From Halalkalicoccus tibetensis (GTDB taxonomy: Archaea > Halobacteriota > Halobacteria > Halobacteriales > Halalkalicoccaceae), in contig NZ_JBBMXV010000001.1 in the NCBI RefSeq assembly GCF_037996645.1, positions 729,917 to 793,916 on the forward strand: 64,000 bases of DNA. The letters are read 5' to 3'. Every line of letters begins with the position of its first letter. The stretch's first letter is position 1. Shown one piece after another: positions 2,123 through 54,902 of this stretch. The notes under the pieces are model-generated. The model saw nothing but the letters and a program-made list of their open reading frames with translations, was not told the origin of the DNA and ran no database searches. The position numbers and the translations under genes were made by a program.

Positions 2123-3061
2123 ATGGTACGATTCTCGATCGCGAACGGACGCGAACTCGAAACGATCCGGCGGTGGTTCGGCCACCTCCGTGAAACACGC
2201 CCCGGACGGCTCACGGCGAGCGCATATGCGATCTGCGTCCACTGCTCGCTGTTGCTGGCCGCGGTGGGCGCGAGCAAGGTCGCGGTCGTCTCGCTCCTGC
2301 TGTCGATCCCGGTGAACGTGGCCGCGGCGGTGGCGTTCCTGGTGACGCTCGCGGTCTACAACCACAACAAGCTGACCGACCTCGCGGAGGACGGGGTCAA
2401 CGACCCCGACCGCGCCGCCTTCTTCGGCTCACGAAAGCGGCTCTTCGGCCTGCTCTCGGCCGGCGCCTACCTCGCGGCGCTCTGTCTGTCCGCCCTCGGC
2501 GGCCCGGTGGCGTTCGCGCTGGCGCTGTTCCCGGGGGCCCTCGGCGTGCTCTACAGCAGCCGCTGGCTGCCCGGGTCGGGGGCCGACCGGCTGAAGGACG
2601 TGCTGGTCGTCGGGACGGGCGCGGTCGCCCTCGCGTGGGCCGTCCCCCTCGCGCTCCTGCCGCTCGCGTTCGAGGGGCGTTCGTTCGGCGCGGGCGCGGC
2701 CGTCGTCCTCGGCTTCTTCTTCCTGCGGACGGTCGTCGGCGTCGAACTGTTCAACGTCCGCGACGTCGCGGGCGACCGACGGGAGGGCGTCGGCACCCTG
2801 CCGGTCGCCCTCGGTGTTCGCCCGACGCAGGCCGCCCTCGGGGCGGTGAACGCCTGCTCGTTCGCGCTGCTCGGCGGTGCGGTCCTCCTCGACGTGCTCG
2901 CGACGGCGGCGCTCGCCGTCGCGCCGGCGATGCTGTTCTCCTCCGTGCTCGTGGCGCGTCTCGGCCGGGACCGGTCGATCGACCGGCTCTGCCTCGCGAG
3001 CTACCTCGAATCACCCCTCATGGCCGTCTGTCTCGCCGCCGCAGTGGCTTTCGGAGCTTGA
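2123..3061 (+). CDS. UbiA-family prenyltransferase
   Basis: Integral membrane protein of 312 residues with about eight hydrophobic helices. UbiA enzymes attach an isoprenoid chain to an aromatic or glycerol-phosphate acceptor in the membrane. The two Asp-rich Mg/prenyl-diphosphate sites are recognisable though divergent: NKLTDLAEDGVND (about residues 83-95) and NVRDVAGDRREGVGTLPVALG (in part; about 209-229), the latter followed by the usual fixed-ring GVGTLPV segment. The ATG at 2123 was chosen; the frame is open further upstream but there it overlaps the photolyase remnant. The acceptor cannot be told (menaquinone, heme O and archaeal ether lipid enzymes are all in this family); the gene next to a histidine kinase gives no pathway clue. 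Confidence 0.82.
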   Translation: MVRFSIANGRELETIRRWFGHLRETRPGRLTASAYAICVHCSLLLAAVGASKVAVVSLLLSIPVNVAAAVAFLVTLAVYNHNKLTDLAEDGVNDPDRAAFFGSRKRLFGLLSAGAYLAALCLSALGGPVAFALALFPGALGVLYSSRWLPGSGADRLKDVLVVGTGAVALAWAVPLALLPLAFEGRSFGAGAAVVLGFFFLRTVVGVELFNVRDVAGDRREGVGTLPVALGVRPTQAALGAVNACSFALLGGAVLLDVLATAALAVAPAMLFSSVLVARLGRDRSIDRLCLASYLESPLMAVCLAAAVAFGA

Positions 3062-3146
3062 TTTAACTTCCACTAGTAGAAAACATATAAGAGGAGCCGG
3101 GCTGTGGCGGGAGTATAGCGGGTCGGCCGTTTCGGACGATGGTCAG

Positions 3147-4841
3147 ATGGTTCAGCTAACGCCGACGTTCGTGCTGATCGTGGGTGCGGTGCTCGCCGCG
3201 GGGAGCGTCGCGGCCCTGGCGTGGCGCCAACGGCCCGAACCCGGTGCGGTCAGCCTCGCGGCCCTCATGCTCGCGGCGGCTTGGTGGTCCGCGACGCATC
3301 TCGGCACCCTCCTCTCGGGGACGCTGGCCGGGACGCTGTTCTGGGCGCGACTACAGTGGTTCGGAAGCGTGGCGCTGCCGGTGTTGTGGATCGTCTTCGC
3401 GCTCGAGTACACCGGCCGCGACCAGTACGTCAGGGCCCCGATCGTCGCGGGGCTGTCGGTCCTCCCGGCGCTCACGATCGCGCTGCTGTGGACGAACGGC
3501 TCGCATGGCCTCGTCCGCGAGACGGCGACGCTCGTCGAGCACAACGGCTATCTGGTCCTCGAGTCGGTCTGGGGGCCGTGGTTCTTCCTCGCCGTGGGCT
3601 ACGCGTATCTCCTCGCGGCCGTCGGGTCGCTGCTGTTCGCCCAGCTCGCGGTCGGCTCCTCGTTCCTGTATCGTAGCCAGGCCGCGGCCCTCCTCGTCGG
3701 CGCCGCGCTGCCGTGGCTCTCGCATCTCGTCTATCTCAGCGGGCTGACCCCCTGGGCCGGCCTCGACCTGATGGCGGCCTCCTTCTCCGGCTCGGGGGCC
3801 GTGTTGCTGTTCGCGCTCTCGCGGGGCAAGCTGCTCGAGGCCAACCCGTCCGCGAGCCGCCTCGCGAGCGAGTTCGTCGTCGGGGGGATCGACGACGGGG
3901 TCGTCGTCGTCGACTCCCGCGGGTTCGTGGTGGACCTGAACCCCGCGGCACGGGGGATGCTCGACGCAGGCACGACCGACGTCGTCGGGAGGCCGGCGAG
4001 CGACGTCGTGCCGGGCTACGACCCCGGGGACCCCCCGGCGGGAAGCGACTCCGAGGTGACGATCGAGGACGAAGAGACCACCCGGTACGTCGACGTCCGG
4101 GTCTCGATCTTGAAGGACTACCACGACCGGGTCGTTGGCCGGGCGGTCGTCCTCCGGGACGTGACCGAACGCCGTCGCCACCGCCAGCGCCTCTCGGTGC
4201 TTCACCGCATCCTCCGGCACAACCTCCGGAACGAGATGACGGTCGTTCGGGGCCACGCCGTGGGGATCGCGGACGACCATCGGGACCACGCGAGCGCGAT
4301 CGAGGAGAGCGCGACGCGGGTCATGGACCTCAGCGACAAGGCCGCCCAGATCGAACGGATGGCCGAAGGGAGCGACGAGGACCCGCCGGCGATCAGCCTC
4401 GATAGCACGATCGCGAACACGGTCGAGTCGCTCCGGTCCGAGTACCCCCGGACGACGTTCGTCGTCGGGGAGCTCCCGGCCGTCGCGTGTGGCTCGCCGG
4501 CGGGGACGGCGATACACAACCTCGTCGAGAACGCCGCCGAGCACAACACCGACGACGAACCGACGGTCACCGTCGAGGCGGCCGTGGAGGGCGAGGCGGT
4601 TCGGATCTCGGTCACGGACAACGGGCCGGGGATCCCGCCCGTCGAACGGGAGGTCCTCGAAGCGGGCGGCGAGACCCCCCTCCGACACGGCAGCGGGATC
4701 GGCCTCTGGCTGGTCAGCTGGACCGTCGAGCTGCTCGGCGGGACGATCGAGTTCGCGGAGAACGACCCCACCGGCAGCGTCGTCACGCTCCGCCTTCCGG
4801 TGCTCGGTCGCGACGGTGCCGACCCCGGGACGCGGGAGTGA
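3147..4841 (+). CDS. Membrane sensor histidine kinase with 7TM input, PAS and kinase core
   Basis: 564-residue protein. The first about 225 residues hold seven hydrophobic helices (the haloarchaeal histidine-kinase N-terminal 7TM type), followed by a PAS domain (about 235-335, GIDDGVVVVDSRGFVVDLNPA), a dimerisation/phosphoacceptor helix with RILRHNLRNEMTV (His near residue 358), and an HATPase_c domain with N-box NLVENAAEHN, G1 DNGPGIP and G2 GSGIGLWLV. It would sense a membrane or small-molecule signal and phosphorylate an unlinked response regulator. The ATG at 3147 begins the first helix; the open frame extends to 2877 but there it overlaps the prenyltransferase. No receiver protein is adjacent. 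Confidence 0.9.
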   Translation: MVQLTPTFVLIVGAVLAAGSVAALAWRQRPEPGAVSLAALMLAAAWWSATHLGTLLSGTLAGTLFWARLQWFGSVALPVLWIVFALEYTGRDQYVRAPIVAGLSVLPALTIALLWTNGSHGLVRETATLVEHNGYLVLESVWGPWFFLAVGYAYLLAAVGSLLFAQLAVGSSFLYRSQAAALLVGAALPWLSHLVYLSGLTPWAGLDLMAASFSGSGAVLLFALSRGKLLEANPSASRLASEFVVGGIDDGVVVVDSRGFVVDLNPAARGMLDAGTTDVVGRPASDVVPGYDPGDPPAGSDSEVTIEDEETTRYVDVRVSILKDYHDRVVGRAVVLRDVTERRRHRQRLSVLHRILRHNLRNEMTVVRGHAVGIADDHRDHASAIEESATRVMDLSDKAAQIERMAEGSDEDPPAISLDSTIANTVESLRSEYPRTTFVVGELPAVACGSPAGTAIHNLVENAAEHNTDDEPTVTVEAAVEGEAVRISVTDNGPGIPPVEREVLEAGGETPLRHGSGIGLWLVSWTVELLGGTIEFAENDPTGSVVTLRLPVLGRDGADPGTRE

Positions 4842-6454: not shown

Positions 6455-8152
6455 TCATCGCCCGCCGTCGGGATGACCCTTTCCGTCCGTCGTGAACTCG
6501 AGGCGTAGTCCGCCGGTATCGCTCCCCTCGAGCGAGAGCTCCCAGCCGTGGCCCTCCGCGATGTTCGTGATGATGACCAGCCCGAAGCCGGTCCCCTCCT
6601 CGCTGCTGTAGCCGGGTTCGAGCGCAGTCGCACGCTCCTCGGGGTCGATTCCGGGGCCGTCGTCGCCGATCGCGAACCCCGTCGGCGTGGCCTCGACGGT
6701 GACGGTCAGATCGCCCGTCGAACCGTGTTCGACGCTGTCGCCGGGATCCGGTGGATCCCGGCTGCAAGTCGAGCATGGCTCGACACTGTCGTCGGCCTTC
6801 GGCCGACTGCTCGTTGGACCGTGTTCAACGCTGTCGTCGGGATCCACCGGATCCCGGCTGCGAGTCGAGCCATGCTCGACGCTGTTCCGAAAGGCGTTCT
6901 CGAACAGCTGCGCGAGGCGGCTCCTGTCGGCCTCGACGGTCCGGTCGTCGCCGACGACGAGGGTCGCGCCGTCCGTGTCGACGTTCGTCCACGCCTCCTC
7001 GGCGACGGTACCGAGCACCACCGGCTGTCTCCGGCCGACCATCTTCCCCTCCCGGGCGAGCACCAACAGCCCGTCGATGATCTCGCGCATCCGCCGGTGG
7101 CTCTCGCGTACCTGTTCGAGATGCTCGAGATCGCCGGTCTCCTGTGCGAGCGAGGCCGACCCCTCGGCGACCGTCAGCGGGTTGCGCAGGTCGTGGGAGA
7201 CGACGCCGATGAACTCCTCGAGGCGGGCGTTCTTCCCCGCGAGCGCGCTCTCGCGGGCGATGCGATCGAGCGCGGCCGTCGTGGTCTCGACGAGCAGCTC
7301 GGTGAAGTAGACGTCCGCGTCGTCGAACGCGTCCCGGCTATCGGAGGCGACGATGAGCACGCCGTGCTCGCCGAGCGGGTAGATCATCTCGCTGCGGAGA
7401 TGCGTCTCGGGGTTGTGTGCTTCTTCCTCCTCCTGAACCCCTTCGAAGACCCGCCCCTCCCCGGAATCGAGGACCTGCCAGGCGAGACAGTCGCCGCGCT
7501 CCAGGGTCGGGACCGTCCCCAGCGACTCCTCGACGACCTCGGTGTAGGCGACGGGTTCGAGCCGCTCGCCGGCGTCGTCGGCGAGGTGAACGCCGGTGTG
7601 GGCGAGCCCCAGAACGCGGTTCGCCGCCGAGACCGCGACGGTCGCGGCCTCCTCCCTCCCCTCGGCGGCCATCAGCTCGCGGGTCGCCCCGAGCAACCCC
7701 TCGAGCGTCCACCTCGTCCGGTCGTCCTCGGCGTCGCGCCCATCCCCCGGACCGTCGACGGCCGTCCCGCCGTCGACACCCCCGTCCTCGACGGGGCGTC
7801 GCGGCGCCCGTTCCCGGTCACTCGCCGGCGTCGGTTCCCCCTCCGCGGCGGCCTCGATCTGCGCGCGGAGCTCCTCGGGTCGGTCGATCGTCGCCGTCGG
7901 CAGGACCCGCGCGCCGGCCAGCCGCCCCTCCGAGGCCGCCGCCGCGTCGTCGGTCAGGACGAGCGTCGGGAGCCGACTCCCGTCGCCGAGCGCGTCGGGC
8001 CGCCATCCGAGAGAGACCACGCAGTCGAACGCCGTGCCCACCGTCTCCTCCGGGGCCAGGGTGGAGAGCGCCACCCCCTCGCCGAGCTCCCGATCGATCG
8101 CCTCACCCACGCCGGGATCGCCGATGAACGCCAGCCGTACGGGTGGGGCCAT
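6455..8152 (-). CDS. Soluble sensor histidine kinase (GAF-HisKA-HATPase) with in-frame repeat insertion
   Basis: 565-residue cytoplasmic kinase. Residues 1-100 resemble a response-regulator-like fold (VRLAFIGDPGV), about 100-145 are an acidic linker, about 145-300 a GAF domain, then HisKA with VSHDLRNPLT (phosphoacceptor His320) and HATPase_c with N-box LFENAFRNSVEHG, G1 DDGPGID and G2 GTGFGLVI. Oddly, the N-box is followed by a 49-residue insertion (residues 425-473) made of three Val-Glu-type repeats of 17, 15 and 17 residues, encoded by hairpin-forming DNA; see the repeat entry. The ATG at 8152 was preferred over an in-frame TTG at 8167. The MBL hydrolase gene follows after six bases. Confidence 0.88.
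   Translation of the reverse strand: MAPPVRLAFIGDPGVGEAIDRELGEGVALSTLAPEETVGTAFDCVVSLGWRPDALGDGSRLPTLVLTDDAAAASEGRLAGARVLPTATIDRPEELRAQIEAAAEGEPTPASDRERAPRRPVEDGGVDGGTAVDGPGDGRDAEDDRTRWTLEGLLGATRELMAAEGREEAATVAVSAANRVLGLAHTGVHLADDAGERLEPVAYTEVVEESLGTVPTLERGDCLAWQVLDSGEGRVFEGVQEEEEAHNPETHLRSEMIYPLGEHGVLIVASDSRDAFDDADVYFTELLVETTTAALDRIARESALAGKNARLEEFIGVVSHDLRNPLTVAEGSASLAQETGDLEHLEQVRESHRRMREIIDGLLVLAREGKMVGRRQPVVLGTVAEEAWTNVDTDGATLVVGDDRTVEADRSRLAQLFENAFRNSVEHGSTRSRDPVDPDDSVEHGPTSSRPKADDSVEPCSTCSRDPPDPGDSVEHGSTGDLTVTVEATPTGFAIGDDGPGIDPEERATALEPGYSSEEGTGFGLVIITNIAEGHGWELSLEGSDTGGLRLEFTTDGKGHPDGGR
6717..6880 (-). repeat. Alternating hairpin repeats inside the histidine kinase gene
   Basis: Four copies of a 7-bp stem/3-base loop hairpin A (6717-6733, 6768-6784, 6813-6829, 6864-6880; arms like GTCGAGC/GCTCGAC) alternate with three hairpins B (6741-6761, 6792-6806, 6838-6856; arms such as CCGGGATCC/GGATCCCGG). 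Hairpin A recurs every 51, 45 and 51 bp, always multiples of three. The spacers are conserved: A to B is (G/A)CTGTCG and B to A is CTGCNN (CTGCAA, CTGCTC, CTGCGA on the plus strand). The reading frame stays open and encodes VEHGST...DDS-type units. It lies in the ATP-binding N-box region of the kinase. Confidence 0.9.
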
Positions 8153-8245
8153 TGTAGTATTGATCAATCAGTAGTCACATATCCTTTACGACCGTCCGAC
8201 GGTCGATCGGTGGGTGTTATGTAGCCGGCGGCGCCCCCACCGTGT

Positions 8246-11537: not shown

Positions 11538-11612
11538 GCTCCGTTGGTGTAGTCCGGCCAATCATATTGCCCTCTCACGGCAATGACCAGGGTTCGAATC
11601 CCTGACGGAGCA
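11538..11612 (+). tRNA. tRNA-Glu (anticodon CUC)
   Basis: 75-nt cloverleaf: acceptor GCTCCGT pairs with ACGGAGC, followed by discriminator A; the anticodon stem TTGCC/GGCAA encloses loop CTCTCAC, giving anticodon CUC; the T arm contains GGTTCGAATCC. The CCA end is not encoded and there is no intron. The TTAAA at about 11496 upstream may be its promoter. Confidence 0.95.
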
Positions 11613-28827: not shown

Positions 28828-28912
28828 GCGCGGGTTGCCGAGCTAGGCCAAAGGCGCAGCGCTTAGGACGCTGTCCCGTAGGGGTCCGCCGGTTCGAATC
28901 CGGTCCCGCGCA
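28828..28912 (+). tRNA. tRNA-Leu (anticodon UAG)
   Basis: 85-nt tRNA with a long variable arm. Acceptor GCGCGGG pairs with CCCGCGC and discriminator A; the anticodon stem CAGCG/CGCTG encloses CTTAGGA, giving UAG; the variable arm is about 14 nt (TCCCGTAGGGGTCC) and the T arm contains CCGGTTCGAATCCGG. No CCA encoded, no intron. Its last 22 bases are repeated 109 bases downstream (see separate entry). Confidence 0.95.
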
Positions 28913-54200: not shown

Positions 54201-54902
54201 ATGCGCGAGATAAAACGACGACGCATGATCCAGCTGTCCGGCGGTATAGCCCTCACAAGCATGGCCGGCTGCCTCGGCGCCGACGAGGACCCGGACGAGG
54301 ACGAGGAGGAGAACGGCGACGACGCCAACGGCGAGAACGGTGACGACGACCACGACGACGGCACGAAGGACGACGACAAGCCCAAAAGCGGCGACGACGC
54401 CCCGAAGGTCGACGTCGAGACCCCGGACGGGAAGACGGTCACGATCGAGCCCAAGGACAAGCCGACCGTCGTGATGTTCGCCGACATCGAGAGCGAGGAG
54501 TGTAAGGCCTACTCCGAGACGCTGGTCGACCTCCACGGGAAGTACGAGGACCACGCGTACATGGTGACGGTCAACTCCAACCTCGACGTCTCGAAGGAGG
54601 ACGTCAAGGCGTTCCACGAGGAACACGGCGGCGACTGGGAGCACGCGATGGGCGATCTGGACGCCCTCGAGAAGTACGGCATCACGGCCTCGGTGACGAT
54701 CTGCGTCATCGACGAGGACGGCAAGATCGCCTTCCGGTTCGAGGGCGACGTCGACCGGGAGACGGTCGAGAAGGTCCTCGAGGCGTACGCCGAGGGCGAG
54801 ATCGACGAGGAGGCGGTTCGCGAAACCCTCGAAGAGTACGCCGAGGGCGAGGTCGACGAGAAGGCGATCGAGGACGCCATCGAGTCGTACTCGGACCACT
54901 GA
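54201..54902 (+). CDS. Redoxin-like lipoprotein with acidic linker and C-terminal repeats
   Basis: 233-residue exported protein. N-terminus MREIKRRRMIQLSGGIALTSMAGC carries Arg-rich and hydrophobic parts and a lipobox (SMAGC), then an Asp/Glu-rich linker (about 28-73), then a TlpA/redoxin fold (about 75-190: KPTVVMFADIESEECKAYSETLVDLHGKYED in part). Only one Cys lies in the usual redox position (ESEEC), so a CxxC thioredoxin is excluded; a 1-Cys peroxiredoxin or inactive fold is possible. The last 45 residues contain imperfect repeats AYAEGEIDEEAVRETL/EYAEGEVDEKAIEDAI. The ATG at 54201 is preferred. Confidence 0.75.
   Translation: MREIKRRRMIQLSGGIALTSMAGCLGADEDPDEDEEENGDDANGENGDDDHDDGTKDDDKPKSGDDAPKVDVETPDGKTVTIEPKDKPTVVMFADIESEECKAYSETLVDLHGKYEDHAYMVTVNSNLDVSKEDVKAFHEEHGGDWEHAMGDLDALEKYGITASVTICVIDEDGKIAFRFEGDVDRETVEKVLEAYAEGEIDEEAVRETLEEYAEGEVDEKAIEDAIESYSDH

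Follow-up and report, generated by a model that had tools for sequence, protein, structure and literature searches.

Short palindromic DNA sequences lying in frame within protein-coding genes are known from Rickettsia and Wolbachia, as RPEs and WPEs (Ogata 2000, 2002 and 2005), and from Methanocaldococcus jannaschii (Suyama 2005), all as cited in PMC2996958. The palindromic amphipathic repeat coding element (PARCEL) described in that paper is mobile and forms tandem coding repeats of 25 aa with dyad symmetry; its authors found none in archaea (PMC2996958). Haloquadratum walsbyi carries palindrome-associated transposable elements (PATEs), which, in the account given by PMC3119063, have no transposase of their own, bear near-terminal palindromes related to IS605, make no target duplications and include 52-bp forms, reduced to the termini, that are possibly mobile. 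The GTAG/CGTC REPs of PMC3733652, a text in which the string 'halo' is absent, are mainly intergenic; their intragenic copies are tagged hairpins within ORFs, often dimers encoding 20-30 aa.

Here we describe a family of in-frame hairpin elements in haloarchaea, beginning with an array in a sensor kinase gene of Halalkalicoccus tibetensis. An initial annotation of this DNA had likened the array to the coding palindromes of Rickettsia, an apt comparison, and had stated that no archaeal family was established, which is too strong in view of the M. jannaschii palindromes cited in PMC2996958 and the Haloquadratum PATEs of PMC3119063. Its interpretation overall is partly supported by our results. 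We found no description of the element in the open-access literature, and VEHGST-type strings returned nothing relevant there.

Hairpin array in a sensor kinase gene

The window, that is, the whole 64,000-nt stretch of DNA analyzed, contains the following features, all on the minus strand.

6455-8167, minus: host gene, a sensor histidine kinase of 570 aa with GAF, HisKA and HATPase_c domains (ORF, Pfam, AlphaFold2/PDB fold match)
6884-6901, minus: kinase N-box codons (ENAFRN) directly 5' of the insert, with the insertion point after the AAC codon (alignment)
6833-6883, minus: unit 1, 51 nt, AGC + A1 + TCGCA + B1 + GAC
6864-6880, minus: hairpin A1 of unit 1, encoding VEHGST
6836-6858, minus: hairpin B1 of unit 1, 10 bp with 1 mismatch
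6788-6832, minus: unit 2, 45 nt, AGC + A2 + GAGCA + B2 + GAC
6813-6829, minus: hairpin A2 of unit 2, encoding VEHGPT, 6 of 7 pairs
6791-6807, minus: hairpin B2 of unit 2, 7 bp
6737-6787, minus: unit 3, 51 nt, AGT + A3 + TTGCA + B3 + GAC
6768-6784, minus: hairpin A3 of unit 3, loop-inverted, encoding VEPCST
6740-6762, minus: hairpin B3 of unit 3, 10 bp
6717-6736, minus: terminal AGC + hairpin A4 (A4 at 6717-6733, VEHGST); compare the empty orthologue L152, NSVEHAGPDVTITVEA

The boundaries of units 1-3 were set from empty/filled orthologue pairs, and the terminal AGC with A4 is the displaced end of the N-box, preceding the host strand LTVTVEA. The A hairpins have 7 bp and a 3-nt loop and start at 6864, 6813, 6768 and 6717. 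The four A and three B hairpins reported to alternate over 6717-6880, with A recurring at 51, 45 and 51 bp, were confirmed in position. The annotated extent captured the hairpins, but the repeating unit opens 3 nt before A, with AGC, and closes with GAC. Likewise, the units do adjoin the N-box, as had been proposed, but lie 3' of its helix, not within it. A1 and A3 (17 nt) are mutual reverse complements, as are 21 nt of B1 and B3 (100% in each case); each pair is the same stem with its loop turned round.

The array is not a product of chance, because 53 of 55 stem positions are paired, whereas 5,000 synonymous recodings averaged 34.0 and peaked at 46. Of the 26 perfect 7-bp/3-nt hairpins in the 64-kb window, 6 fall within the array, their densest cluster, and Tandem Repeats Finder reported it as a degenerate 51-bp repeat. 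Rfam contained no family for the hairpin units and matched tRNAs alone, with tRNA genes (RF00005) at 11538-11612 and 28828-28912 of the window. Elsewhere in the window, a second histidine kinase gene lies upstream (2877-4841, plus strand), without the element, and a 51-bp tandem repeat (54740-54872; 2.6 copies, 79% match) occupies an acidic coding stretch; the consensus of that repeat is unrelated to the hairpin units.

We utilized AlphaFold2 to predict the structure around the insert. An insertion at this site had been expected normally to kill the fold. The model (46 sequences, mean pLDDT 81) instead places a low-confidence stretch (135-188) between an intact N-box helix (116-134) and the next strand (189-195), and its fold matches those of HK853 and CpxA in the PDB. 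Because helix and strand are intact around the low-confidence stretch, the prediction for the insert is a floppy disordered loop rather than a fold breaker. Empty homologues have a variable turn at the same site, which also speaks against a fold-killing insertion.

Distribution among haloarchaea

We searched for the unit by peptide, by covariance model and by DNA pattern. The peptide search gave matches in 21 of 59 related genomes. With weak matches counted, R1, a covariance model of A-B-A units, reached E≤0.01 per genome in 320 of 392 Halobacteriales genomes; its best match in the genome of the window was unit 2 (G000:C1:736684-736745). The 110 loci of the strongest R1 matches, L142 excepted, encode histidine kinases and carry the unit 3' of the N-box, on the same strand and in the same frame; a motif-based kinase test mislabelled some of these loci, which were assigned by eye. 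R2, a covariance model of the 48-nt type described below, had matches with E≤0.001 in 220 of 293 genomes, and the 20 R2 loci read were all kinases (L370 by eye). Searching 84,980 species genomes with an exact DNA pattern yielded 108 stretches. All 80 of those listed were from haloarchaea, and their inter-A gaps were 28, 31 or 34 nt only, although 28-36 nt were allowed. A 24-nt pattern comprising the B core with flanking GGCA and GAC was present in 106 of 293 genomes, and its reversed control gave 0 among the matches listed.

These searches bear out the earlier suggestion that VEHGS-type repeats recur in other haloarchaeal kinases. The unit is widespread in Halobacteriales, for the most part 3' of the histidine-kinase N-box and in a single orientation and frame, and the family spans dozens of haloarchaeal genera, including Haloferax. 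Among the other orders in the phylum sample, only G548 matched, weakly and over 42 nt, and those matches look unrelated to the element. Five plasmid records carry the element, all in kinases. Viral carriage was considered and discarded: viral_contigs gave no exact match and phages no tblastn match.

Anatomy of the element

The basic element is 45 nt long and reads AGC - hairpin A - nGGCA - hairpin B - GAC, each hairpin having 7 bp and a 3-nt loop. At coding sites the consensus insert is AGC-[A, 7 bp/3 nt]-[TG]GGCA-[B, 7 bp/3 nt]-GAC, in most cases directly 3' of a (G/A)AC codon, with the consensus peptide S-E-x-x-S-x-S-G-(S/N)-R-T-x-S-(G/D)-D. One basic element adds 15 residues at a surface turn, typically SEGRSPSGSRTQSGD, and variants of 48 and 51 nt stay in frame by means of a different or longer B stem. 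In the 48-nt type, which was not seen at any transposon end, hairpin B has 6 bp and a conserved 10-nt loop, TCGCAnnCTC. The terminal GAC of the element restores the target, so that copies can stack in tandem. Counted over both strands and with redundant loci included, A-to-A spacings were 45 bp (401), 48 bp (138), 51 bp (57), 54 bp (2), 43 bp (3) and 70 bp (1). We do not take the 43-bp spacing as a proven frameshift, as all three cases trace to a single locus whose assembly contains an N (L056/L080). The tandem coding repeats and dyad symmetry recall PARCEL, but the repeats are polar and 15-17 codons long, not the 25-aa amphipathic repeats of that element.

Copies outside kinases

Our former working view, a duplication confined to kinases, was abandoned when the weaker covariance-model matches proved to be non-kinase genes. 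In these weaker R1 matches, unrelated genes hold one copy apiece, with the same layout. One strand and frame are shared by 35 of 38 clear coding sites (27 non-kinase, 8 kinase). By Pfam/NCBIfam assignment, the in-frame hosts include ribosomal protein uL2, archaeal leucyl-tRNA synthetase, prephenate dehydratase, PolX, a beta-CASP nuclease, CBS proteins, molybdopterin oxidoreductase, a HerA-like ATPase, disulphide oxidoreductases, an MCP and an ABC ATPase. The insert had been read as a kinase feature; the element also lies in frame in these many unrelated proteins and at the right ends of TnpB transposons. In the genome of the window itself, the prephenate dehydratase gene (L349, G000:C3:36172-36237) has a single in-frame copy (GPRPAGSRTESDD), and the prephenate dehydratase of a genus mate (L396) likewise has the element.

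The cleanest empty/filled case is uL2. In genus g47, empty relatives of 95-98% identity read GAGTTCGA(G/C)GA(C/T) directly followed by GGCGA, and the uL2 gene of G261 has exactly 45 nt inserted at that point. The uL2 pair L460/L401 differs by exactly 45 nt, with neighbours 98% identical; the uL2 insert encodes SEGQSPSGSRTQSGD. The site is also filled in G171, G629 and G175 and degraded in G625, and G626 shows the same split, as seen at alignment level. The filled site reads GAC, then 45 nt ending in GAC, then GGC, an arrangement in which a 3-bp duplication and a GAC-ended element look alike. Other hosts also gained or lost copies. A 318-aa non-kinase reading frame (L026) contains two 48-nt units in frame (48/96 nt), where G153 has one decayed unit and 15 other genus members have no insert. 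In the beta-CASP proteins L390 and L398, the element occupies different sites, each empty in the other.

RPEs are single larger palindromes. In the haloarchaeal element, a fixed 5-nt spacer joins two small hairpins whose sequence is free but whose pairing is kept by covariation; the site is fixed (after (G/A)AC, with GAC closing the element), and the tandem arrays are tied to a single kinase motif. As a kind, it is nevertheless RPE-like, with unrelated in-frame hosts and precise empty sites. It shares with the RPEs, WPEs and M. jannaschii palindromes, as these are cited in PMC2996958, short palindromic DNA that lies in frame in unrelated genes, at tolerant sites, and encodes a short peptide.

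Gain and loss in kinases

Repeated in-frame insertion, one of the explanations first offered for the array, was borne out by empty and filled orthologues. Among kinases of the same genus (orthologous or close), L152, which reads NSVEH-AGPDVTITVEA, and L154 are empty, L151 has one 45-nt unit, L153 a decayed unit, and L150 a string of other hairpins at the insert site. In Halorubrum, the kinase L305 is exactly 45 nt longer than the empty L288 in an otherwise near-identical stretch. Mobility is read from such comparative gain and loss. In L150 and L159 (G005), the N-box inserts contain extra hairpin types (GDMRGSSASACKPESPGDSGD) that covary between the two paralogues, which indicates hairpin families beyond A and B.

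The element also spread between paralogues. In five cases, paralogous kinases of one genome share identical unit cores of 33-39 nt, with only 43-51% of residues in common in their upstream flanks. Identical V-E codons are under-represented in adjacent A hairpins (30 observed vs 55 expected; minimum 36 in 2,000 shuffles), as would follow from mutual deletion of identical neighbours, suggesting that identical neighbouring A hairpins are lost by recombination. Mean unit similarity was 0.81 within genomes vs 0.80 within genera, and we therefore do not claim that spread was mainly within genomes.

The kinase units follow the general rule, with AAC followed by AGC-A-nGCA-B-GAC and then AGC. Placed behind the N-box asparagine, an insert would disrupt the helix unless V-E-H-G were encoded by hairpin A itself, and palindromy would then dictate S-T after it. 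This may be why kinase copies carry the A variant GTSGARC-AYG-GYTCSAC, and the two constraints could together explain a fixed VEHGST beside a varied B. The unit and the native N-box (ACAGCGTSGARCACGG) have about 16 nt in common, which could provide homology for ectopic recombination among kinases. A correlation at the residue before VEHG fits this idea: in mixed genomes, the host's S or A matches that of the units (40 of 56 concordant, p=0.001).

The same correlation is what one would expect if slippage, template switching and gene conversion within kinases had built and homogenized the array with no mobile element involved. The strongest matches, nearly all at the kinase N-box, agree with that account, and the loop-inverted pairs A1/A3 and B1/B3 resemble strand-switch products. 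We consider it improbable as an origin, given the exact 45-nt empty sites in unrelated genes and the occurrence of the element at TnpB right ends; such local processes probably contribute to spread among kinases.

Constraint on the DNA

We analyzed covariation in the hairpin stems. The 45-nt type had 51 double-change cells vs a shuffled mean of 20, with 95% of cells pairing and at most 3 double-change cells in slid controls; the 48-nt type had 61 vs 23 shuffled, with 98% of cells pairing. The synonymous-recoding null was rejected for every unit type (z 11-38 in sets of at least 60 units). The rejected null and the compensatory stem changes show selection or mutation acting on a DNA element, in line with the initial annotation's suggestion of selection on the element. 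B stems vary at all codon positions, so the peptide alters along with the palindrome, and the amino-acid changes in B covary in a way that preserves DNA pairing. In the 28 non-kinase sites (24 distinct A), 180 of 196 A-stem positions are paired, against a recoding maximum of 131; the A hairpin was absent from the search pattern that found these sites.

A conserved kinase loop under protein selection, its palindromes a by-product of codon bias, would account for the constant frame and orientation and for VEHG as a conserved motif. The rejected recoding null, the covarying amino acids of B and the differing presence of the insert between close orthologues make this extremely unlikely. An ordinary domain insertion would occupy one site in all orthologues, with conserved protein and no hairpins in the DNA, and the opposite was found on each count tested.

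Selection on the mRNA strand is expected to favour G.T mismatches, which RNA tolerates, over A.C. Among 74 distinct A and 117 distinct B hairpins, we counted 25 G.T and 38 A.C mismatches. G.T is not in excess, which points to selection on DNA rather than mRNA. The strong predicted folds and covarying stems could also suit hairpins selected as kinase mRNA structures for translation pausing, stability or thermosensing. With the mismatch counts reversed from the RNA-strand expectation, units in functionally unrelated genes and no Rfam family, we judge this very unlikely.

A TnpB right end as putative parent

Several non-coding copies adjoin TnpB genes (OrfB_IS605 and TNB domains) on their downstream side. 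Here, an A - AGGCA - B - GAC block lies on the opposite strand within an outer stem, and about 25 nt (e.g. ACATCCTCC...) extend beyond the hairpins, ending near ...GAGGATGTCA. The right ends were found with a B-core search pattern, which leaves the A hairpin and its spacing as the sole independent evidence of homology. The order hairpin A - nGGCA - hairpin B - GAC is the same in the haloarchaeal IS200/IS605 right end/omega-RNA hairpins (cf. PMC12558985). The TnpB right ends differ from the element in being non-coding and in having A stems of 8 as well as 7 bp, the outer stem and the further 25 nt or so; stems in coding copies keep the frame.

Because the hairpin pair has this right-end (omega-RNA region) layout, we consider it probable (roughly 70%) that the array comprises three tandem copies of a miniature, PATE-like derivative of an IS200/IS605 TnpB right end. 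Shared descent of coding element and transposon end is suggested by the layout and the A hairpin. Coding copies end no more than 3 nt beyond the hairpins and lack the outer 25 nt or so of right ends, so they are not complete PATEs; this counts against a simple account. Like PATEs as described in PMC3119063, the element is haloarchaeal and without a transposase of its own, and its palindromes match IS605-type (TnpB) ends, A hairpin and spacing being the independent part of that match. The PATEs of Haloquadratum vary in length and carry a terminal oligonucleotide, and they are not described there as in-frame coding elements, whereas the element is 45, 48 or 51 nt, codon-phased and without the outer right end.

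The direction of descent could have been the reverse, a free-standing hairpin element having later been captured as a TnpB right end. Coding copies do have sharp boundaries of their own, and right ends bear extra outer-stem sequence. IS200/IS605 ends bear hairpins in general, which counts against this order of events. Descent from transposon end to miniature element is also more parsimonious, as for PATEs in the account of PMC3119063, and we regard the reverse as unlikely.

A REP/BIME-type element served by a RAYT-like tyrosine transposase, comparable to GTAG/CGTC REPs and Rickettsia RPE-4/6, would share the short hairpins, the tandem and intergenic arrays and, as in PMC3733652, the in-frame intragenic copies; the reverse strand of many B hairpins even begins with CGTC. 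The element's stems are 7 or 10 bp, its loops 3 nt and its tail TGCC, whereas CGTC families have 8-9 bp, 4-5 nt and CCA (PMC3733652). The TnpB right-end match is also more specific, and we find a REP/BIME origin improbable. Two sets of arrays deserve mention here. In the genome of the window, a multi-hairpin array of the same style (L348, G000:C2:465102-465169) lies between two tRNA genes; intergenic copies therefore exist too. Non-coding multi-hairpin strings of BIME-like look (L350-L353) occur in G013, a Halorubrum-type genome without Y1 transposase.

Returning to the right-end derivative, the element would move as a DNA hairpin through an IS200/IS605-type transposase acting in trans or, alternatively, by hairpin/microhomology recombination. 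Y1 transposase (PF01797) was present in 186 of 293 genomes and weakly associated with the element (OR 2.35, p=0.0015, uncorrected for phylogeny), explaining copy number weakly; it was absent from the genome of the window (G000) and from the copy-rich genomes G013, G050 and G071, which tells against such movement. Spread within kinases may be aided by ectopic recombination at the conserved N-box, and the element may survive since its peptide is polar and falls in loops.

Discussion

Coding palindromes, previously a curiosity of Rickettsia and Wolbachia and of a single methanogen, now include a haloarchaeal family. This family has a plausible transposon parent and, in a universal ribosomal protein, a site that is cleanly empty in some genomes and filled in others. 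We give even odds to the further proposal that a right-end hairpin pair became a self-contained, codon-phased module of 15 residues, tolerated or used in essential proteins and stacked as loop cassettes in kinase ATP-binding domains throughout the order. How mobile hairpin DNA turns into protein sequence, why one strand and frame survive, and whether loop cassettes tune kinases can now be tested. Among the genera with the element are genetically tractable ones such as Haloferax. The family also calls for caution over mobile-type inserts within alignments of haloarchaeal kinases and ribosomal proteins.
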